Below are positions 4,379 to 18,763 of a stretch of DNA of 22,913 nucleotides, one piece after another (the stretch's first letter is position 1; every line of letters begins with the position of its first letter). Source of the DNA: a virus. The position numbers were made by a program, and so were the translations under genes. The notes under the pieces are model-generated. The model ran no database searches, was not told the DNA's origin, and worked only from the letters and a program-made list of their open reading frames with translations. Location: positions 1 through 22,913 of the IMG/VR virus record IMGVR_UViG_3300027747_000700; one strand, given 5' to 3'.

Positions 4379-4636
4379 ATGAAAAAAAACGCAAAGCTAG
4401 TAGATCCAGTCAACTACCCCAACTATGGGGACAACGAGGCTAAAAACCTAAACAAGAAGCCCTGCAAGAAGACTTGCGAGGCTAATGAACCTACTGAGTT
4501 CCGTATCGTTTGGGATCACGAAATCAGCCAGAAGATATTTGAGCTTGAGGCCAAGATCCTCACCTACACACTAATCGGTGCGGCAACTCTATTTGTATCA
4601 ATCTGCAATCTTTTTGCTTTAATCCTAAACAAGTAA
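4379..4636 (+). CDS. Small C-terminally anchored membrane protein
   Basis: An 85-residue protein starting MKKNAKLVDPVNYPNYG after an A/C-rich leader (AACCAACAATG) with no Shine-Dalgarno. An upstream in-frame TTG exists but overlaps the previous gene and gives an implausible leader. The N-terminal two thirds are polar and basic with a small Cys pair (KKPCKKTC). Residues about 62-83 form one membrane helix (LTYTLIGAATLFVSICNLFA). Its TAA overlaps the ATG of the annealing protein by one base (TAATG). A tail-anchored topology is likely. No function is recognised. Confidence 0.55.
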   Translation: MKKNAKLVDPVNYPNYGDNEAKNLNKKPCKKTCEANEPTEFRIVWDHEISQKIFELEAKILTYTLIGAATLFVSICNLFALILNK

Positions 4637-5373
4637 TGGAACAAGAAATCATAGACCTTCCTCAAGTGAAGGCTTATTCCGAGGCTTTAGTATCCGCTAT
4701 TGGTGAACTATCCAATGTGCCAAAGACTGCATCTAATCCTTACTTCAAGTCAAAGTATGCTCCTCTGGATGCAATCGTTGATGCAACTCGACCTGTTCTA
4801 GCAAAGCATGGGTTAGCAGTAATGCAACAACCCATCTTCATGGAGGGAACCGCTGGTGTCGAGACTACAATTCTTCACAAGGAAGGATATAGCACAACCT
4901 CTACCCTTCTGCTTCCATTGAAGGATCAGTCCCCACAAGGAGTGGGATCTGCCATCACCTACGCCCGCCGTTATGCCCTAGCCGCTGTGCTTGGACTTGC
5001 GACCGAGGAAGACGATGATGGTAATGTGGGGACTGGTCTTTCTAAAAAGGAAGAAGCCAAGCCAGCAAAGTCTCCTGTGAGGGAGGTTAGCAAGGAAGAC
5101 GTTAAGGCCACGGCAACGTGGAAAAACTTGGAGATCACCAACATAAAAGAAATTCAAGGCAAGAAGAGCGTGTTCTATTGCGTGGAGTTTGACGGGAAGG
5201 CAGAGGCTCTCACGTTTGACAAAAAGCTATTCACTACTGCAAATGAATTGTCTTTAGAGAAAGTAGATGCTGGAGTAGCACCAGGGAAGAACGATCCCTC
5301 CAAGTGGCAGTTGATCAGTCTTGTTCCTACTAATGGGGCAAAGGCAAATATCACAACTGATGAAAAAGCCTAA
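4636..5373 (+). CDS. erf: ERF-family single-strand annealing protein
   Basis: A 245-residue protein of the ERF superfamily (phage P22 Erf relatives). Family hallmarks are the N-terminal helix region with 'P..ASNPYFKSKYAPLDAI' at about 31-46, LAKHGLAVMQQP (54-65), then GVGSAITYARRYALAAVLGL at about 102-121 and EEDDDGN directly after. It anneals complementary single strands during phage recombination or genome circularisation. A Lys/Ala/Pro-rich linker (about 138-160) leads to a C-terminal domain of about 85 residues that probably mediates partner binding. A matching 5'-3' or processing nuclease is encoded at 16146. TAATG coupling to the previous gene and a 14-base overlap with the next place it in one operon. 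Confidence 0.88.
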   Translation: MEQEIIDLPQVKAYSEALVSAIGELSNVPKTASNPYFKSKYAPLDAIVDATRPVLAKHGLAVMQQPIFMEGTAGVETTILHKEGYSTTSTLLLPLKDQSPQGVGSAITYARRYALAAVLGLATEEDDDGNVGTGLSKKEEAKPAKSPVREVSKEDVKATATWKNLEITNIKEIQGKKSVFYCVEFDGKAEALTFDKKLFTTANELSLEKVDAGVAPGKNDPSKWQLISLVPTNGAKANITTDEKA

Positions 5374-10062: not shown

Positions 10063-10398
10063 ATGACAACACAAAGCGGGAGTAATGACCCTGCCACGAT
10101 AGAGTCGCTACGCAATCGTGTAGCATCCCTCACCGCAGTAATATATTCTGCGATAAATGAAGATACCTCGTCGTTAGCATCACGCTACATGGATGAGAAA
10201 ATGAAGAACATGGATATTGAGGATCGCTTCCTAGCTGGCAAGACAGAGGCCACGGAGCAGATCATCAGCCTTATCTACGAGAAATACTATTTGCTTAACC
10301 GCACTTTCCACGGCAAGGACAGCGATCAGGCACTAACCTTCAAGAACTTGATTCATTCCATTAGGGATATTCAGCACGACGATTTGAACAATGTCTAA
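10063..10398 (+). CDS. Small helical hypothetical protein
   Basis: A 111-residue protein with an A/C-rich leader (AAATAAAACAATG) and no Shine-Dalgarno. It is almost entirely helical, with a basic and acidic mix (SLRNRVASLTAVIYSAIN, EATEQIISLIYEKYYLL). No Cys and no membrane segment. It overlaps the ATP-grasp gene by 8 bases. It could be a head-completion or accessory protein given its location after the portal; no family is recognised. Confidence 0.6.
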   Translation: MTTQSGSNDPATIESLRNRVASLTAVIYSAINEDTSSLASRYMDEKMKNMDIEDRFLAGKTEATEQIISLIYEKYYLLNRTFHGKDSDQALTFKNLIHSIRDIQHDDLNNV

Positions 10399-11671
10399 GT
10401 GTTTAGTAATAGATCACGGCTTGTTTTCTGCATTTGCAGAGCGATTGGCTGAAGAGCATGAGGTGAGATACTTCGTTCCTTTTAACGAGAAGTCGTTCCC
10501 GATACCTGGCCCTGCGTTTATTGGAGAGGGACTTAATGGAGTAGAGCGAGTCAATAGCTGGGAGGAAAACCTAGATGTGGATTTCGTTGTGATTCCAGAT
10601 GTGGGATTCATGTATCTCGCAGAGCATATCCGATCCCTTGGCATCCCTGTATGGGCGGCTGGGCTAGGAGAGAAGCTGGAAGTTCAGAGGTGGAGGGCAA
10701 AGGAAACCATGAGGGAGCTTGGCTTGCCTGTGGGTAAGTGCGCTCTCGTTACTGGAATGCCAGCCCTGCGTGAATACCTAGAGAACAACGATGAGGTTTA
10801 TGTCAAGATTAGTGGCTTCCGAGGACTAGCGGAAACCTTCTACGCCCCATCATGGAAGCTGGCAGAACCTCGTGTGAACGAGTTGTGGGACGCTCTAGGA
10901 GGTCTTTGCAACATCTTCCCGTTCATCATAGAGCATAAGGTGGAGAGCGTTGTGGAGGCAGGATATGACGGCTTCTGCATTGATGGGAAATTCCCCTCCA
11001 CTTGCTTGACTGGCGTTGAGGTGAAGGATTGCGGCTATGTGGGATGCGTGAGGGACTATGCTGATCTTTCCGAGCCTGTGAAGATCGTCAACGAGAAGCT
11101 GGCTCCCTTCATGGAGGAGGCCAAGTATCGTCAATGGTTCAGCACCGAGATCCGAGTTACAGACGAAGGAACCCCTTATCTGATTGATCTCACCACCCGT
11201 TGCCCTGCTCCGCCTTCTGCCCTTGTTTGGGAGATGGTGGATAACGTGGGCGAGATCGTAGAGGCTGGAGCCAATGGTGAGCTTGTTGATCCTGTCTGGA
11301 GAGCCAAGTATGGTGCGCTGGCTATCATCAAGTCATCATTTGCAGAGGAGCGATCCTTACCAGTATCCGTTGATCCAAAGGTAGAGAGGTGGATCAAGTG
11401 GCGTAATGCTTGCCGTATTGAAGATACAACCTACATCATACCCACCCTTGGTGTTAGGATGTGCGAGGTGGGAGACTGCATTGGAATTGGCGACACGATG
11501 GAGGAAGCTATCAAGAATTGCCAAGAACACGCTGAAGGAGTGAGGGGGTTTGATATTAAAGTCAATACTGACGCTCTTCCTGCCGCATTAAAAGAGATTG
11601 AAAACGCCGAGGAAAATGACATTATCTTCACGGAAGATGCCCTTCCTAAAATGAAAGACCTACTAGACTAA
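10391..11671 (+). CDS. ATP-grasp ligase, PurD-like
   Basis: A 426-residue protein. Residues 1-75 are a Rossmann-like pre-ATP-grasp domain (KCLVIDHGLFSAFAERLAEE). VWAAGLGEKLEVQRWRAKET near 90-110 matches the segment before the ATP-grasp fold in PurD/PurK-type ligases. YVKISGFRGLAET near 137-149 is the Lys plus flexible loop that holds ATP phosphates. WFSTEIRVTDEGTPYLIDLT near 247-266 is the metal-binding Glu/Asp block, with DLTTR where many ligases have E-x-N-x-R. Enzymes of this fold activate a carboxylate as acyl-phosphate and join it to an amine. Here it lies between portal and scaffold genes. It could modify a virion protein or make a precursor for DNA modification; the substrate is unknown. 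Confidence 0.72.
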   Translation: MSKCLVIDHGLFSAFAERLAEEHEVRYFVPFNEKSFPIPGPAFIGEGLNGVERVNSWEENLDVDFVVIPDVGFMYLAEHIRSLGIPVWAAGLGEKLEVQRWRAKETMRELGLPVGKCALVTGMPALREYLENNDEVYVKISGFRGLAETFYAPSWKLAEPRVNELWDALGGLCNIFPFIIEHKVESVVEAGYDGFCIDGKFPSTCLTGVEVKDCGYVGCVRDYADLSEPVKIVNEKLAPFMEEAKYRQWFSTEIRVTDEGTPYLIDLTTRCPAPPSALVWEMVDNVGEIVEAGANGELVDPVWRAKYGALAIIKSSFAEERSLPVSVDPKVERWIKWRNACRIEDTTYIIPTLGVRMCEVGDCIGIGDTMEEAIKNCQEHAEGVRGFDIKVNTDALPAALKEIENAEENDIIFTEDALPKMKDLLD

Positions 11672-11957: not shown

Positions 11958-13157
11958 ATGGACACACCACAACCAACAACACCCGTAGCAACCATCCCTG
12001 CTGAACCGATCCCTACCTCCCCTGCGGAGCGTCCTAGTGATCTGTCCCAGCTATCACGCCAACTGAAGAACAAGCCAAATCTGCCCAAGGTAGATTACAA
12101 GAACCTCGCAGAGATCCCCGATGTGGGGACGAAGGAGGTAGCTCCTGCTCCTGCTGGTATTGACGTAGTGCCAGAGCAGTCTGTGCAGGACTTCCTCAAG
12201 AGCATTGAAGAGAAGAAGAATACTGGCCCGATTGAGGAATCTCCCAAGGAGGAGGCAAAGGTAGAGTCACAAGCTGATAGCCTGGATCTATCCGATCTAG
12301 ACCTATCAAAAGACCCAGAGCCAGTTGAAGAGAAGCCCAAGAAGAAGAGCAAGGAGGATAACCTAGCAGAACTCCGCAAGAAGGCAGAGGCGGCAGAGTT
12401 TGAAATCAAGAGCCGAGACGAGAAGCTGGCTGAATATCAGAAGAGGGCAGATGAGCTAGAGGCAGAGCTAGAGCGTACTGCTTTTGAGCGTAGCCCCAAG
12501 TTCCGTGATAAGTTCCAAGCCCCTTACGAGGCGGCTATCCAGCAAGCTACTGAGTGGGCTAATGAGTATGCCTCTGATCCTGCTATTGCAGAGAAGGCTC
12601 TCTCGCTAAAGGGCAAGGAGCGTATTGAGTTTATTGACGAGAACTTTGGAGGAGGAGCGGCATCTGCCCAGTTCCTATCTCTCATCAATGACGCTGACAG
12701 CAAGCGAGGCGCATTGGAAGCCGCAATGACCAACCACAAGGAAACTGCATCTACGCTTATGCAAGATGAGGAGCGTAGTCGCCAGCAGACTACTGATAAG
12801 ATCAACAAAAACTTTGAGAGGGTAGCACAGCACCTTGCAAGCAAGTCTGACTTCTTCCGCAAGGGAGATGACGATGATCATAACAAGGTGGTTGATGAGC
12901 GTATTAGTGCGGCTCGTAACATCCTCATGGGAACTGCTTCCGAGAACGACATGATGGTAACTCCTTTCCTTGCTGTGATTGCCAAGGATGCGGTTGCCGA
13001 GAATGCCAAGCTGAAAGCTGAACTTGCCAAGTATAAGGCTAGGGTGGCGAAGGATTCGGCAGTTAGCCCATCGCCTCGCAGGGGAACTAGCGACACCAAC
13101 GAGACTACTGGCAAGCCCAAGGGGGCAATGGATTCTATTCGATCCTACTTCCGATAA
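11958..13157 (+). CDS. Scaffold-like head assembly protein
   Basis: A 399-residue, strongly acidic and Lys/Glu-rich protein without Cys. The first 30 residues are Pro/Thr-rich; residues about 60-130 are disordered and acidic (DLSDLDLSKDPEPVEEKPKK). Residues about 132-178 form a long coiled coil (LRKKAEAAEFEIKSRDEKLA) and further helices follow to about 370. A basic end (GAMDSIRSYFR) recalls the capsid-binding tail of scaffold proteins. Such proteins chaperone capsid assembly and are removed before packaging. Composition, coiled coil and its place after the portal support this. The partner major capsid protein is not seen next to it, which is odd. Confidence 0.65.
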   Translation: MDTPQPTTPVATIPAEPIPTSPAERPSDLSQLSRQLKNKPNLPKVDYKNLAEIPDVGTKEVAPAPAGIDVVPEQSVQDFLKSIEEKKNTGPIEESPKEEAKVESQADSLDLSDLDLSKDPEPVEEKPKKKSKEDNLAELRKKAEAAEFEIKSRDEKLAEYQKRADELEAELERTAFERSPKFRDKFQAPYEAAIQQATEWANEYASDPAIAEKALSLKGKERIEFIDENFGGGAASAQFLSLINDADSKRGALEAAMTNHKETASTLMQDEERSRQQTTDKINKNFERVAQHLASKSDFFRKGDDDDHNKVVDERISAARNILMGTASENDMMVTPFLAVIAKDAVAENAKLKAELAKYKARVAKDSAVSPSPRRGTSDTNETTGKPKGAMDSIRSYFR

Positions 13158-14849
13158 ATGAAGCTCCAGACCTATGGGCTGGACTTGAGTGCATTTCCAA
13201 AAGCAACGCAACTAGAGGTTGAGTTGCTGATGGTGAAAGATCCAGATCCAAGTCGGTTCAGCGGCTTGAGTCGGGGTCAGCATATCAAGCACGTTATGGG
13301 TATGCTCTGGCCTGATGTGATGAGCAGGTGGAATGATTGGAATGAACTGGCGTTGTGGGCATGGACGAACTACGACGAGATTGGAGTGACTGGCTGTGCG
13401 GCGGCAGGAAAGACATTCACCTTCACCTTGCTCTCGCTTGTGGAGTTTCTGGCTTGCCCTATGGGGACTCGCATAGCTCTCACCTCTACGACTGTCCCAT
13501 CCTTGCGTGGACGTATCTGGGCTGAAATGATGAAGTTCGTGCGTCCTGTATATCCCTTGTTTGGGTTGAATGTGGTAGACTCCCAGACCAAGATCCAGTT
13601 CCAAAAAGGAGACGATAGGGCGGCTATCATTGCCCTAGCGGTCGATAGTGGGGCGATTGAGCAAGCTGTGGGTAAGTTGCAGGGCGTTCACATACCAAGG
13701 GTAGTGATCGTCGCTGACGAGGCGGCGCAGACCAATCCAGCTATCTTCTCCGCTCGTGCAAACCTTGCAGTAGGTACAGACTTTTATCGCTTCATTGCTA
13801 TTGCCAACGCATCCTCGCAGTTCGATCCTCATGGCCTATTCTGCGAACCTAAGATGGGATGGGGATCTATCCAAGATGATGACGAGTTCTGGGAAACCAA
13901 GACAGGAGTGTGCGTACGATTCGACGGACTCAAATCGCCGAATGTGAAGGCAGGGAGGCTCTTGTATCCATACCTTTTTGGTCAGGACAATATTGACACG
14001 ATCAAAAAGAACTTTGGAGAAGGATCGCTGGAATGGAATAGCTATGTGAGGGGAATGTGGAGCAAGAGCGGAGCTAGGAACACGATCCTAGACCAAGCTA
14101 TGATCAACGAGGGTCGAGCTAGGGAGAGCGTCACTTGGGCAGGAGGAGGCATCAAGACGATTGCGGCTCTTGACCCTGCATTCACGACTGATGGCGATGA
14201 TTGTATCTTGCGCTTTGCAAAGGTGGGGAAAGCAGTTGATGGCGATCTCATCATTGAATGTGGCGACATCGTGCGACTCAATCTCACCGAGAATGAGAAC
14301 TACCCGTTGTTCTACCAAGTGGCAGACCAGACGATTGCAGAGTTGACTCGTCGAGGAATCCAGCCAGAGGACTTCGCCATTGATGCTACTGGTGCAGGGG
14401 CAGGAATAGCTGACATCATCTCACAACGCTGGCAGACAGGGTTTGTAAGGGTGTCATTCGGAGGAGGGGCTACAGAGCATCCTATCAGCATTGAAGATGA
14501 TCGTCCTGCAAAGCAAGTCTACGCAAACCGAGTCTCGCAACTATGGGGGCAGATCCGCACGATCATCATGGCGGGAAGAATGCGTGGGCTAGATGACCAG
14601 ACTAGCCGAGAGCTATGCGCCCGTATCTACACGCTCAAGAACGAGAAGATGCTCCTGGAAAGCAAGAAGGATTTGAAGAAGCGCACCAAGGGGAACTCCC
14701 CTGACAGGGCTGATGCTCTGGCGTTGCTGGTAGAAGTCATGGTCACAAACTGGGGGCTTGGCAACAGCGTGGGGAGCCTCGCAGACTCCGATGAAGATTG
14801 GGATTCTTTCGTCTCACAGAACACGCTAGAAGCAGATTACGAAGGCTGA
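13158..14849 (+). CDS. terL: Terminase large subunit (DNA-packaging ATPase/nuclease)
   Basis: A 563-residue protein in the usual size range. The ATPase half has Walker A GCAAAGKT at about residues 78-85, an adenine-motif helix after it, and Walker B VVIVADEA at about 181-188, with the catalytic Glu following the Asp. The nuclease half has the RNase H-like acidic triad: ALDPAF near 335-340, AIDATGAG near 406-413 and SPDRADAL near 513-520. It drives genome translocation into the prohead through the portal and cuts the DNA. The start codon follows the scaffold stop immediately (TAAATG), with no Shine-Dalgarno. It lies downstream of the portal, the reverse of the common order. No small terminase was recognised. 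Confidence 0.92.
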   Translation: MKLQTYGLDLSAFPKATQLEVELLMVKDPDPSRFSGLSRGQHIKHVMGMLWPDVMSRWNDWNELALWAWTNYDEIGVTGCAAAGKTFTFTLLSLVEFLACPMGTRIALTSTTVPSLRGRIWAEMMKFVRPVYPLFGLNVVDSQTKIQFQKGDDRAAIIALAVDSGAIEQAVGKLQGVHIPRVVIVADEAAQTNPAIFSARANLAVGTDFYRFIAIANASSQFDPHGLFCEPKMGWGSIQDDDEFWETKTGVCVRFDGLKSPNVKAGRLLYPYLFGQDNIDTIKKNFGEGSLEWNSYVRGMWSKSGARNTILDQAMINEGRARESVTWAGGGIKTIAALDPAFTTDGDDCILRFAKVGKAVDGDLIIECGDIVRLNLTENENYPLFYQVADQTIAELTRRGIQPEDFAIDATGAGAGIADIISQRWQTGFVRVSFGGGATEHPISIEDDRPAKQVYANRVSQLWGQIRTIIMAGRMRGLDDQTSRELCARIYTLKNEKMLLESKKDLKKRTKGNSPDRADALALLVEVMVTNWGLGNSVGSLADSDEDWDSFVSQNTLEADYEG

Positions 14850-14896
14850 AAATCTTTTGAAAAAAGATTTGACCCGTGATGCCGACATGGTATGAG
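14850..14896 (+). promoter_or_regulatory. Inverted repeat and promoter after the terminase
   Basis: A perfect inverted repeat with 9-base arms (AAATCTTTT at 14850-14858 and AAAAGATTT at 14862-14870, loop GAA) starts at the terminase stop. Overlapping its end is TTGACC (14869-14874), 16 bases, TATGAG (14891-14896), a fair sigma70-like promoter. The repeat would overlap the -35 as an operator. The leader that follows contains GAGGC/GCCTC nested inside GGGT/ACCC (about 14899-14930), a possible RNA hairpin before the ATG at 14939. Confidence 0.42.
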
Positions 14897-14938
14897 TAGG
14901 GTCGAACCAGAGGCAATGGCCTCGCAACCCACATAAAA

Positions 14939-15256
14939 ATGAAAAAAGTAAAAACAAGTCATCTCACCGATGACGAAATCTGGGAGAACTATATTCTTCC
15001 CGATGTCAAGCAAGTGATTGGAGTGTACCGCAAACTGCTTGAGTCTATAGACGAATTAGCAGATAGAGTCGGATGGTATCCGAATGTGATTGAGGGTAAG
15101 GTGTTCCCTAAAAATGCTCCACAGCGCAGGGAGATAGATCGCATCATGTGGAATATTGAAAGCGATAGAAAGGGAATGATTGATACCATGAGGAGAAACT
15201 GGCTCATTCAAGATTTAGGACTGACCGCAGAGCAACTTGCTTTGCTAGAATCATAA
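14939..15256 (+). CDS. Helical hypothetical protein
   Basis: A 105-residue protein, first gene after the candidate promoter at 14869. It is basic at the start (MKKVKTSHLTDDEIW), then mostly helical (YRKLLESIDELADRVGWYPN, REIDRIMWNIESDRKGMID) and ends LTAEQLALLES. No Cys and no membrane segment. No family recognised. Its position at the head of the modification/replication module suggests a DNA-related or regulatory role, but nothing in the sequence shows it. Confidence 0.6.
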   Translation: MKKVKTSHLTDDEIWENYILPDVKQVIGVYRKLLESIDELADRVGWYPNVIEGKVFPKNAPQRREIDRIMWNIESDRKGMIDTMRRNWLIQDLGLTAEQLALLES

Positions 15257-15272
15257 TCAACCACAAAAAACA

Positions 15273-15470
15273 ATGAGAAGACCGAAGCCATTCGGACAAA
15301 CGCATTCATGTGAATGCGGCAAGGACACGGAGATAATCGTGTATCCATACATCCCAGCCATCACCTCGCATCAATACGAGGACAACGAGGAAGCAGAAGG
15401 AGGCTACTGCGATCCAGAGGAATGCCCAGAGTGCGGATGTGGAATTGATTACGAGGACTACGCAGAATGA
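15273..15470 (+). CDS. Cys-rich mini-protein upstream of mom (Com-like position)
   Basis: A 65-residue acidic protein after an ACAATG leader. Cysteines lie at residues 13, 15, 46, 51, 54 and 56 (HSCECGK and CDPEECPECGCG), enough for one zinc site. It overlaps the Mom-like gene by ATGA. In phage Mu, Com is a 62-residue zinc-binding protein encoded just upstream of and overlapping mom; it binds the mom message and activates translation. Size, Cys content and position here parallel Com, but the Cys spacing differs and this protein is acidic rather than basic, so homology is not shown. Alternatives are an unrelated zinc ribbon or a rubredoxin-like protein. Confidence 0.55.
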   Translation: MRRPKPFGQTHSCECGKDTEIIVYPYIPAITSHQYEDNEEAEGGYCDPEECPECGCGIDYEDYAE

Positions 15471-15481
15471 ACTGGTCTGTG
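15461..15481 (+). promoter_or_regulatory. Hairpin with the mom start codon in its loop
   Basis: CGCAGA (15461-15466) can pair with TCTGTG (15476-15481), six pairs including one G-U, around the 9-base loop ATGAACTGG, which begins with the start codon at 15467. It could limit initiation until the upstream gene is translated or a protein binds. Confidence 0.35.
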
Positions 15482-16141
15482 CATCAGATCACTTTTCGGG
15501 ATGCAGAGCCTTGGCTTTTGAAAAAGCATTACGCCAAAAGGATACCTCCAGTATCTTATGCCTTTGGCGCATTCGTTGATAAATCCTTGATCGGAATAGT
15601 GACATATGGAACTCCCGTTTCATCCTCTCTTCGGGAGGGTGTTTGCGGAAAGGAATATGCTGATTATGTGATTGAGCTTAATCGCCTGTGTTGTGAAAGT
15701 ACTAAAAACCTAGCTGGTTTTTTAATTTCTAATTCATTAAAACTAATACCAAGGCCAAAGATTGTTGTTAGTTTTGCTGATACTGCACAGGGCCATGTTG
15801 GATATGTTTATCAAGCAACTAATTTTGTTTACACAGGATTGAGTGCAAAGAGAACAGATTGGAAGATCAAGGGTGAAGAACATCTTCATGGAGCTACCAT
15901 AGCAGACAAATTCAGGGGAGTTGAAAACAGGGCGCAAGCTCTCCGCGATAAATACGGGGATGACTTTTATTTGGAAGATCGTCCGAGAAAGCACAGATAC
16001 ATTTATTTTATTGGAACAAAAAAAGATAAGAAAAAAATGAAACAATCCCTCAAATATCAGATTGAAGAATACCCGAAAGGAGACTCTCAAAGATATAATG
16101 CGAGCGCAAAAATAAACACACAAATGCTACTAATCAATTAA
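15467..16141 (+). CDS. mom: Mom-like DNA adenine modification protein, copy 1
   Basis: A 224-residue protein of the Mom family (GNAT-related). Phage Mu Mom converts adenine in DNA to N6-carbamoylmethyl-adenine, protecting the genome from host restriction. Conserved blocks seen in both copies here: KHYAKR (20-25), ELNRLC (70-75), VSFAD (101-105), GHVGYVYQATNF (109-120), YTGLSAKRTDWK (122-133), HRYIYF (176-181) and EYPKGDSQRY (201-210). The His-Tyr pair and the Arg of ELNRLC are the best candidates for catalytic residues. The C-terminal third is Lys-rich, as expected for DNA contact. The ATG overlaps the Cys-rich mini-gene. The second half is more AT-rich than the neighbours. Confidence 0.8.
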   Translation: MNWSVHQITFRDAEPWLLKKHYAKRIPPVSYAFGAFVDKSLIGIVTYGTPVSSSLREGVCGKEYADYVIELNRLCCESTKNLAGFLISNSLKLIPRPKIVVSFADTAQGHVGYVYQATNFVYTGLSAKRTDWKIKGEEHLHGATIADKFRGVENRAQALRDKYGDDFYLEDRPRKHRYIYFIGTKKDKKKMKQSLKYQIEEYPKGDSQRYNASAKINTQMLLIN

Positions 16142-16145
16142 TAAT

Positions 16146-16859
16146 ATGCAATCAGTAAAACTAGACCGACACAAAGAGCATCAGAAGTATTTCCTATCTG
16201 ATGGAACGCAAGTCCCCGGGGGATCTACGATCAGCAAGATAGGAGACGATGCAGGGGCATTGATCCATTGGGCTTGGAAGCTAGGATGCGAGGGCAAGAA
16301 CTACCGCGATGTGAGCAAAGAGGCTTGCGACATTGGTACGCTTGCCCACTTCTACATCGAATGCTTCCTCAACAACCAAGTTGCTGACCTATCCGACTAC
16401 ACACAGGAGGAGCGGGATAAGGCTCTTGTGTGCTACCATAAGTTTCTTGAATGGTGGCAAGGGCAAAAGCTACGCAAGGTTTATACCGAAATCCAGCTTG
16501 TGCATGAAGAGTTGCGATATGGTGGAACGATTGATCTAATAGCCGAAAGAGATAATGGAGAGTTTGTTCTACTTGATTTCAAAACTTCCAAGAAGATTAG
16601 TGATAGTTATTGGAGGCAATGTGCTGGATATGCACAACTATTTAACTTAAATAATCCGCAAATGGTGCGAAAGCCATTTAATGAGATCAAAGATCATGCC
16701 ATCGTCCGTATCGGTAAGGAAGAGGAGGGAGACTTTGAAGTAGTCTGGAAGGATGATCTCTCAAAAGAATGGGAGGTATTCCAGAAGCAAGTTGATCTCT
16801 ACTGGGCTATGAAGGCGGCGAAGCCAGAGCCGAAGCCCCGTGGGAGGAAGAAGAAGTGA
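16146..16859 (+). CDS. PD-(D/E)XK nuclease, RecB/Cas4-like
   Basis: A 237-residue protein. Motifs of the RecB-type PD-(D/E)XK fold are in order: GTLAHFYIE (64-72) with His68 and Glu72, GGTIDLI (126-132) with Asp130, LLDFKTSKK (142-150) with the Asp144-x-Lys146 core, and RQCAGYAQLF (157-166), the Q-x-x-x-Y motif IV. The C-terminus is a Lys/Pro-rich tail (PKPRGRKKK). Such phage enzymes act as exonucleases paired with annealing proteins, here probably the ERF protein at 4636, to recombine or process DNA ends. It is placed between the two Mom-like genes and overlaps the second by GTGA, which links it to the modification cluster. It could instead degrade unmodified DNA. Confidence 0.82.
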   Translation: MQSVKLDRHKEHQKYFLSDGTQVPGGSTISKIGDDAGALIHWAWKLGCEGKNYRDVSKEACDIGTLAHFYIECFLNNQVADLSDYTQEERDKALVCYHKFLEWWQGQKLRKVYTEIQLVHEELRYGGTIDLIAERDNGEFVLLDFKTSKKISDSYWRQCAGYAQLFNLNNPQMVRKPFNEIKDHAIVRIGKEEEGDFEVVWKDDLSKEWEVFQKQVDLYWAMKAAKPEPKPRGRKKK

Positions 16860-17488
16860 GTGCTAAAGTATATGAAGTAAGATTTATAGATTCAAAAGAG
16901 ACTTATGCTTGGCTACTAAATAAACATTACGCAAAAAGAATACCAAGTATAAGTTATTCATTTGGGTTATTTGATTCTGTAGAGTTAAAGGGAGTTCTAA
17001 CAATAGGAAAACCAGCAAGCCCTAATCTTTGTATTGGAATATGTGGCATAAAATACAAGGATTATGTTTATGAATTAAATAGATTGTGTGTATCTGATGG
17101 GTTGCCTAAAAATACATTAAGTTATTTTGTTTCTAAGTGCCTAAAAAAAATAAAAGAAAATATGATAATTGTTTCATATGCCGACAACGGAATGGGCCAT
17201 CACGGATACATCTATCAAGCGACGAATTGGATATATACTGGGCAGACAAAAGAAAGAACAGATATAGGTTTAGATGATGGAACTCATTCTAGACACTACT
17301 CAAAAGATTTAGATAAAAAAATAAACAGAAAAAAAAGAACATCAAAATATAGGTATGTATATTTTATAGGTAAAATGAAAAACGAATTTATGAATAACCT
17401 AAATTACAAAATAGAAAATTACCCAAAAGGTAATAATTCTAGATACGATAGTAGTAAAAATATTTTAAGCCAAACTTATTTTATTTAA
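16856..17488 (+). CDS. mom: Mom-like DNA adenine modification protein, copy 2
   Basis: A 210-residue paralogue of the protein at 15467. It uses GTG at 16856, overlapping the nuclease stop (GTGA), behind GGGAGGA (about 16841-16847). It keeps all shared blocks: KHYAKR (23-28), ELNRLC (73-78), VSYAD (106-110), GHHGYIYQATNW (114-125), YTGQTKERTD (127-136), YRYVYF (165-170) and YPKGNNSRY (189-197). Residues in the 140-165 loop are shorter and more basic. The gene is very AT-rich (many ATA, AAA and TTA codons), unlike the surrounding genes, except for a stretch around 17180-17230. This points to transfer from another genome rather than recent tandem duplication. The two copies may have different site preference or partners. 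Confidence 0.8.
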   Translation: MSAKVYEVRFIDSKETYAWLLNKHYAKRIPSISYSFGLFDSVELKGVLTIGKPASPNLCIGICGIKYKDYVYELNRLCVSDGLPKNTLSYFVSKCLKKIKENMIIVSYADNGMGHHGYIYQATNWIYTGQTKERTDIGLDDGTHSRHYSKDLDKKINRKKRTSKYRYVYFIGKMKNEFMNNLNYKIENYPKGNNSRYDSSKNILSQTYFI

Positions 17489-18763
17489 ATGAGTCTCCCA
17501 TCCAACCTAGATGCAGAGAAGGCATTCCTGTCCTCTGCCCTTCAAAATCCATCTATACTAGATATACACGCCGATCATCTAAAGGCGGCTCTCTTCCATC
17601 ATCCTGCTCATAAAAACTTGTTTAAGGGGCTTCTATCCCTCTGGAAAGAGGGTAAGAGCGTGGATCTCATAACCATCAGCGAGTGGCTAGAGGCTAACAA
17701 TCTGATGGAAGATTGTGGTGGTGCAGGAGAAGTGGCGGCGATATACTGCCATGTTCCCACCTCGCATAACCATGAGGAATACTTTTCAATCATTCGCCAC
17801 TATCACACTGCTCGACTTGCTATTGCTGGCGCAGAGAGGATTATTGATTCTGCAAAGAATCCTGTAGTGAATGGGGAGCTATCCGAGACTGTGCAGAAGG
17901 CTCTAGTGGCTATAGCGTCAGAGGCAGAGTCAGGCACAAAGATTGAATCCATTGGCGAGGCTACTACCCGCCGTCTCAATGAGTATGAGGAGATGGTGAA
18001 TAACAAGGGCAAGCTCATGGGACTCACCTATGGCTTCCCTGCTCTTGATGAACACACAGGGGGCATGAGGACAGGGCAACTGATTGTGATTGGCGCACCC
18101 ACCAAGGGCGGCAAAACCGCATTAGCTCTTAACATAGCTCAAAGAACTGCTGATGCAGGAAATGCTGTGGGCGTATTCAGCTTGGAGATGAGTAGTGGGG
18201 AGATGGTGGACAGACTTGTGGCCTCTCTTACAGGCGTGGACATATCAGTTCTTTCAAAGAATCCTACCAAGGAAGAGATGAACAAGATTTCTTTCGGTAT
18301 AGGACAAGTAGGCAAGCTACCTATCTGGATTAGGGATGAGTCAAGTATAAACCCATTGCAGATTATGGCAGCGGCTCGACGTATGGTAGCCACCCATGGT
18401 GTGAAAGTGATTGTCTTTGACTACATTCAGCTTGCCATGCCTACCAACTCAAAGGACTCCCGTGAGCGTCAGGTTGCCGAAGTGAGTCGTTGCTTGAAAC
18501 TTGTAGCCAAAGAATTATCCATCACGATTATAGCTCTCTGCCAACTGAACCGAAATGGTACTGCTCGTGAATCTGATGCGATCCAGCATGATTGCGATAT
18601 GTTCCTAGTGATTAGATACCAAGAGGAATCCGAGAACCAAGAGGATTTAGGATATTGGCTTGACATTCGACTCGCTAGGAATTGTAGTAGAACATCTTTC
18701 CCTCTCACATTCCAGCCGCAATACTTGAGGTTTGAAGAGAGGGAAATAAAACAACACAACTAA
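17489..18763 (+). CDS. dnaB: DnaB-like replicative helicase
   Basis: A 424-residue protein, slightly shorter than cellular DnaB (about 470). The N-terminal DnaB domain (residues 1-100) begins LPSNLDAEKAFLSSALQNP, with HHPAHKNLFKGLLSLW after it. A linker leads to GLTYGFPALDEHTGGMRTGQ (about 177-196), the usual start of the RecA-like domain. Walker A is GAPTKGGKTALAL (about 202-214) and Walker B VIVFDYIQLAMP (about 308-319). LCQLNRNG near 351 is the H4 loop and ARNCSRTSFPLTF near 390 the arginine-finger region. It unwinds DNA at the phage fork. It begins directly after the mom copy 2 stop (TAAATG), with no Shine-Dalgarno. No separate primase was recognised. Confidence 0.9.
   Translation: MSLPSNLDAEKAFLSSALQNPSILDIHADHLKAALFHHPAHKNLFKGLLSLWKEGKSVDLITISEWLEANNLMEDCGGAGEVAAIYCHVPTSHNHEEYFSIIRHYHTARLAIAGAERIIDSAKNPVVNGELSETVQKALVAIASEAESGTKIESIGEATTRRLNEYEEMVNNKGKLMGLTYGFPALDEHTGGMRTGQLIVIGAPTKGGKTALALNIAQRTADAGNAVGVFSLEMSSGEMVDRLVASLTGVDISVLSKNPTKEEMNKISFGIGQVGKLPIWIRDESSINPLQIMAAARRMVATHGVKVIVFDYIQLAMPTNSKDSRERQVAEVSRCLKLVAKELSITIIALCQLNRNGTARESDAIQHDCDMFLVIRYQEESENQEDLGYWLDIRLARNCSRTSFPLTFQPQYLRFEEREIKQHN

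Follow-up and report, generated by a model that had tools for sequence, protein, structure and literature searches.

In the phage genome analyzed here, two genes of the Mom family with separate origins occupy two accessory positions on either side of a conserved PD-(D/E)XK exonuclease gene. Probably, the series of terminase, nuclease, and dnaB genes forms a core, its two slots have received two adenine-modifying, anti-restriction Mom enzymes in separate acquisitions, and the nuclease is the phage's own replication or recombination exonuclease. The window, i.e., the whole stretch of DNA that was analyzed, comprises 22,913 nucleotides of the IMG/VR virus record IMGVR_UViG_3300027747_000700.

The left anchor of the slot region is a terminase-large-subunit-like gene (13158..14849, 563 aa), and its right anchor is a gene for a DnaB-like replicative helicase (17489..18763; DnaB_C 2.6e-53, DnaB 2.1e-21). 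Between them are located a small ORF for a Cys-rich, zinc-ribbon-like protein (15273..15470, 65 aa), mom1 in slot 1 (15467..16141, 224 aa), the exonuclease gene (16146..16859, 237 aa), and mom2 in slot 2 (16856..17488, 210 aa, GTG start), and all of these genes are encoded on the plus strand. The stop codon of the Cys-rich ORF overlaps the start codon of mom1 by four nucleotides (ATGA), mom1 and the nuclease gene are separated by a gap of 4 nt, the nuclease gene overlaps mom2 (GTGA), and the TAA of mom2 is followed by the ATG of dnaB without a spacer. A profile search of the window also identified a gene for an ERF annealing protein (4636-5373), while a 426-aa protein encoded at 10391-11671 had no significant Pfam or PHROG match.

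The same trio of mom1, nuclease, and mom2 is present in the record IMGVR_UViG_3300010334_000006 with 99.7-100% identity, and therefore the trio cannot be attributed to a faulty assembly of one record. This second record has a length of 44.5 kb and an exact 107-bp end overlap, which indicates that it is circular, but it is effectively the same phage and thus not an independent case. The terminase-like protein contains Walker A/B and RNase-H-like acidic motifs, as judged by eye. The window protein itself has no Pfam or PHROG match; its homologs (alignment A3) match phrog_2 (2e-16) and phrog_38, "terminase large subunit". No tblastn match to it was found among 50,697 phage records, and therefore the whole phage group appears to be without cultivated members. 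None was found either when 84,980 genomes of bacteria and archaea were searched with the terminase for host or prophage relatives.

Both outer proteins had been described as Mom-like from the letters alone, and this description holds. The Pfam family Mom (PF25680, curated cut-off 27.1 bits) matches mom1 with 135.6 bits (2.4e-39) and mom2 with 130.7 bits (7.4e-38), and PHROG 1384, "Mom-like DNA modification protein", matches them at 3e-56 and 8e-65, respectively. The two proteins are 41% identical over 228 columns, and all of the motifs named in the sequence-only reading (KHYAKR, ELNRLC, VS(F/Y)AD, GH.GY.YQATN, and YPKG) are common to both. A profile of the Mom family finds the structure of the Mom protein of phage Mu (PDB 8bv8, methylcarbamoylase Mom) at 3e-23. 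Structure prediction, which that reading had proposed as a check, agrees for the mom1 copy: the best fold match of its AlphaFold model (pLDDT 86.6) in the PDB is 8bv8 (E 1.8e-11, TM 0.68), followed by GNAT acetyltransferases. The model thus predicts that mom1 has the GNAT fold of the solved Mu protein, and for mom2, a Mom-family protein, the same fold is predicted from the sequence.

The likeness to Mu Mom includes the full-length profile match, the GNAT fold, and the HY, ELNR, N, SFAD, and YQA motifs, which both proteins of the window share with it. The residues H58, Y59, E108, R111, N121, S146, D149, and Y159 (numbering of the 241-residue Mu protein) are all present in mom1 as well as in mom2. 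As a lead we used H48, Y49, R101, S114, D139, and Y149, which we take to be the catalytic residues of Mu Mom in a 231-residue numbering; this list maps onto the conserved positions of the 241-residue protein with an offset of 10. However, the identity to Mu Mom in the fold match is only about 26%, Mu has one mom gene whereas this phage has two, and the mom gene of Mu is located at the genome end, in contrast to the position of both genes inside the terminase-dnaB segment in the window. Modification of adenine by Mom has been described (PMC8281217; PMC7824862). From this family membership, we infer that both Moms would modify DNA and form an adduct on it, and a DNA-modifying role is likewise presumed for mom2 in this particular phage.

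The assignment of the middle gene to the PD-(D/E)XK nucleases was also borne out. The protein matches PDDEXK_1 (3e-6) and the exonuclease family phrog_298 (3e-29), and its residues H68, E115, D130, D144-x-K146, Q158, and Y162 are invariant in 16 homologs. No PDB sequence match was found for it. The best PDB matches of its model (pLDDT 86.6) are structures of human MGME1 (TMq 0.58-0.63), followed by AdnAB, RecE, proteins of the Cas4 family, and, with lower similarity, lambda exonuclease. The protein thus has the catalytic D...(D/E)-x-K signature as well as the fold that define the PD-(D/E)XK superfamily. With exonucleases of the MGME1/RecE/Cas4 type it shares the fold and the invariant H, D, D-x-K, and Q-x3-Y residues at about 14-18% identity; unlike them, it is a phage protein with a basic C-terminal tail, and its gene adjoins dnaB.

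Relatives of the locus were gathered with the nuclease, the dnaB, and the terminase-like gene, and the interval from terminase via nuclease to dnaB was read in each of them. All loci are metagenome contigs, and several are near-duplicates. In 46 distinct nuclease loci the order terminase-nuclease-dnaB is kept wherever the flanks are present, and the nuclease occurs without any Mom in 41 of them. More distant nuclease homologs (L135-L146) are found in other gene arrangements. Because the nuclease is mostly free of Mom genes and mom2 occurs in effectively one phage only, the nuclease belongs to the core, with an accessory slot on either side of it, and the Mom genes are accessory.

Slot 1, the interval between terminase and nuclease, contains a Mom gene in five distinct loci (the window, L016/L017, L018, L125, and L199), a C5-cytosine methyltransferase gene in eight (L105, L107, L110, L113, L115, L181, L193, and L206), and an N6/N4 methyltransferase gene in two (L104 and L126). 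HNH endonuclease genes are found in this slot in L101, L107, L190, and L191, and it is empty in many relatives. Slot 2, the interval between nuclease and dnaB, contains mom2 in the window and a gene for a 244-aa protein in L018, which has a marginal match (E 0.002) to a gene near the Mom gene of L020. Other relatives carry queD or other small genes in slot 2, and in some it contains little or nothing. In L129 (3408-4852), a QueD protein (TIGR03367, above cut-off) is encoded together with a 237-aa protein (phrog_15826), for which an attempt at identification gave no result; this arrangement suggests that a putative 7-deazaguanine-type DNA modification system takes the position of mom2. The slot-2 genes of L126 (5699-6199) and L188 (4567-5097) encode proteins of 166-176 aa with sub-threshold matches to PDDEXK_14, which are possible nucleases. 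The 246-aa slot-2 protein of L186 (3926-4666) has a remote match to phrog_1384 (1.8e-4) and none to Pfam Mom, and it could represent a distantly related modification enzyme of the GNAT type.

The exchange is seen in the closest sister, L104, the terminase-like protein of which is 99% identical to that of the window. In this phage an N6/N4 methyltransferase gene exactly replaces mom1, and mom2 is absent. The DNA alignment of the two genomes is interrupted from 15472 to 16138 and from 16861 to 17487, i.e., the gaps leave out exactly mom1 and mom2, with breakpoints at the gene edges. Every relative apart from the near-identical record lacks mom2, with alignment breaks at 16859/17489. When the content of slot 1 was mapped onto the terL tree, 12 changes were counted, no fewer than the 11.4 obtained with shuffled labels. 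The start codons of the inserted genes overlap the stop codon of the gene before them: the overlap with the Cys-rich ORF is ATGA in the window, L104, L018, L107, L115, L113, and L199, that with the nuclease gene is GTGA or ATGA in the window, L018, L016, L115, L126, and L129, and in the relatives that were inspected the slot-2 genes begin within or next to the stop codon of the nuclease gene. A plausible route of exchange would be homologous recombination between the conserved genes on both sides. Phages protect their DNA by many chemistries, but it is rarely so apparent which of the genes can replace one another. At slot 1, genes for Mom and for cytosine-C5 and N6/N4 methyltransferases take each other's place, the breakpoints coinciding with gene edges, and therefore the functional equivalence of these modification genes against restriction becomes testable.

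The two Mom genes were acquired separately. In the Mom tree, mom1 groups with the slot-1 Moms of L018, L199, and L125 and with that of L020, while mom2 groups with L004, L006, and the Moms of the phages JeffCo, Riggi, A511, and pPM_01 (SH-aLRT 99). The latter, from isolate phages of Acinetobacter (JeffCo), Bacillus (Riggi), Listeria (A511), and Proteus (pPM_01), are 52-61% identical to mom2 and have also retained Ser124; however, each of these genomes has one Mom only, and its gene neighbors differ from those in the window. A clade of mom1 and mom2 was rejected by the AU test (p 0.0002), as was a clade of the mom1 lineage and mom2 (p 0.0009). In addition, mom2 has a G+C content of 28% and a GC3 of 20%, compared to about 46-47% and 48-50% for nuclease and dnaB. 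The distinct clades together with the AT-richness indicate that mom2 is most likely a late, foreign arrival.

The proposed scheme, in which separately acquired Moms flank a core exonuclease, would work as follows. The conserved terminase-nuclease-dnaB segment would have one accessory position on each side of the nuclease, and a foreign gene would enter each of them where the gene before it leaves a short start/stop overlap, slot 1 having received mom1 and slot 2 mom2, two predicted GNAT-fold enzymes of separate origin. During infection, each Mom most likely modifies adenines in the DNA of the phage itself, as family membership implies, and DNA modified in this way would resist host restriction enzymes. 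The methyltransferases found in the same slot in other phages of the group would do the same job, and a second Mom could allow escape from restriction in a wider range of hosts. The nuclease would act on DNA ends or on single-stranded DNA in replication or in recombination of the ERF type, in concert with DnaB and the ERF annealing protein, and would not be the restriction arm of a cassette.

The sequence-only reading had suggested a modification-protection or DNA-sorting cassette with a nuclease that may process unmodified DNA. In the form considered here, the Moms would mark phage DNA and the nuclease would degrade unmarked DNA of the host or of competitors. The adjacency and translational coupling of the genes fit this idea, and there is a precedent: Mom domains of jumbo phages are typically fused to nucleases of the REase fold, which are predicted to be the restriction component (PMC7824862), so that a Mom next to a PD-(D/E)XK-type nuclease is common to both systems. 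However, the nuclease of the window is a separate protein of a conserved replication type, it adjoins dnaB, its fold resembles the replication and recombination nucleases MGME1, RecE, and Cas4 and not a site-specific REase, and it is found beside C5 and N6/N4 methyltransferases as well. Its joint inheritance with Mom genes fails, with Mom-free copies in the large majority of loci, and the trio is not conserved in relatives, mom2 being near-unique. A cassette is therefore highly improbable, and the comparative data agree with the simpler reading that had been offered beside it, namely that the nuclease serves replication or recombination and is there by chance. The two Moms had also been called paralogs. 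Their presence in one genome, membership in one family, and level of identity would fit a duplication inside this phage followed by divergence to different target sites, but the AU tests, the separate tree groups, and the strongly different composition leave this origin with next to no probability; mom1 and mom2 are not each other's nearest relatives. The very low GC3 of mom2, its absence from all relatives, and its occurrence in effectively one phage raise the alternative that it is transient cargo, a recently captured AT-rich gene that is silent or harmless and does not (yet) contribute to modification. This is unlikely, since mom2 has an intact frame of 210 codons with all conserved residues of the catalytic region, and its start codon is coupled to the stop codon of the nuclease gene.

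One residue sets mom1 apart. The Mu Mom structure 8bv8 carries the title "inactive mutant S124A" (241-residue numbering), which is the sole source used here for the effect of a change of Ser124. A gap-free alignment at this position (Mu RNSES, mom2 KNTLS, mom1 KNLAG) reveals a serine in mom2 and a glycine in mom1. In an alignment of 64 rows, Ser is present in 60 and Gly in mom1, L018, L020, and L199, while L125, the sister of L199, has Ser. The homology of mom1 is unaffected by this difference, but it makes catalysis by mom1 of the Mu reaction, in which N6-(methylcarbamoyl)adenine is formed in DNA, less certain, and mom1 may be unable to perform it. Mom1 is under strong purifying selection. 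Its comparison with the copy of L016 yielded 15 synonymous and one nonsynonymous change (dN/dS 0.017), the comparison with L018 46 and six (dN/dS 0.027), and the overall range is 0.017-0.034; values for the nuclease versus the window copy are 0.12-0.17. A decayed gene is ruled out by these values. The contig of L018 (G010) is circular by end overlap and contains one Mom only (PF25680), and therefore selection keeps Mom proteins of the Gly type without a partner of the Ser type.

These results bear on the view that mom1 is catalytically dead and assists mom2, as part of a heteromer, as a DNA-binding subunit, or as a regulator, so that only mom2 modifies DNA. The glycine at the position of Ser124 and the serine in mom2 would be expected from such a division of labor, but Moms of the same type as mom1 are strongly conserved in phages that lack mom2 at the slot, as in G010, and the other conserved residues that were examined in mom1 (H, Y, E, R, N, S, D, and Y) are intact, which makes a mere helper quite unlikely. 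An extension of the preferred scheme, tentative and with a rather low probability, is that the Gly124 clade is a Mom subfamily that does not need the serine and uses another acyl donor, mechanism, or product. The Moms in the two exchangeable slots, acquired separately, would then each add a chemically different modification to the adenines of this phage. Natural Ser-to-Gly Moms under strong selection are a ready-made test of Mom chemistry, and a phage with both types allows their comparison in one background. While Mom, phage methyltransferases, and PD-(D/E)XK exonucleases are each already known, a Gly124 clade kept by selection and a phage with one Mom of each type are new.

The Cys-rich ORF upstream of mom1 belongs to a family that accompanies the occupancy of slot 1. 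In 11 of 12 occupied loci a member is found ahead of the modification gene, compared to three of 30 unoccupied loci with a member (Fisher p 9e-7), with about four independent pairs only on the tree, nearly all of them in the same direction or neutral. The gene that follows varies and encodes a Mom, a C5, or an N6/N4 methyltransferase. In phage Mu, com, the gene for a small zinc-finger translational activator, overlaps the start of mom, as the Cys-rich ORF overlaps that of mom1, but a comparison with Com profiles and families gave no detectable homology; the ORF is a positional analog. Where the ORF meets mom1, the RNA fold is not unusual (z -0.33). In L177 and L201, copies follow dnaB and have no modification gene in their vicinity, which weakens the idea of an obligate partner. 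A regulatory role of the ORF is possible.

Pairs of Mom genes are rare. Among isolate phages, each of the 277 records that match Mom does so at one place and none has two, while a search of 50 viral contigs with PF25680 found two Moms in two of them, namely this phage and G029; these counts are lower bounds, because contigs can be incomplete and tblastn could miss strongly diverged copies. A literature search that lacked most subscription journals gave no report of paired mom genes. The pair in G029 (locus L148) is independent of that in the window; its genes (1740-2402 and 14399-15085) are 12.6 kb apart, and the second Mom gene is very diverged, follows a ParB-like gene, and is followed by terminase-like genes, as judged by eye. 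In Roseobacter phage CRP-902 (L219, 2633-3642), a gene for a VRR nuclease directly precedes and slightly overlaps the Mom gene, and this Mom has a Glu aligned at the conserved Asp149. The Mom gene of L094 (G048, 12418-13026) contains two in-frame TGA codons; either it is decayed, or this phage reads TGA as an amino acid.
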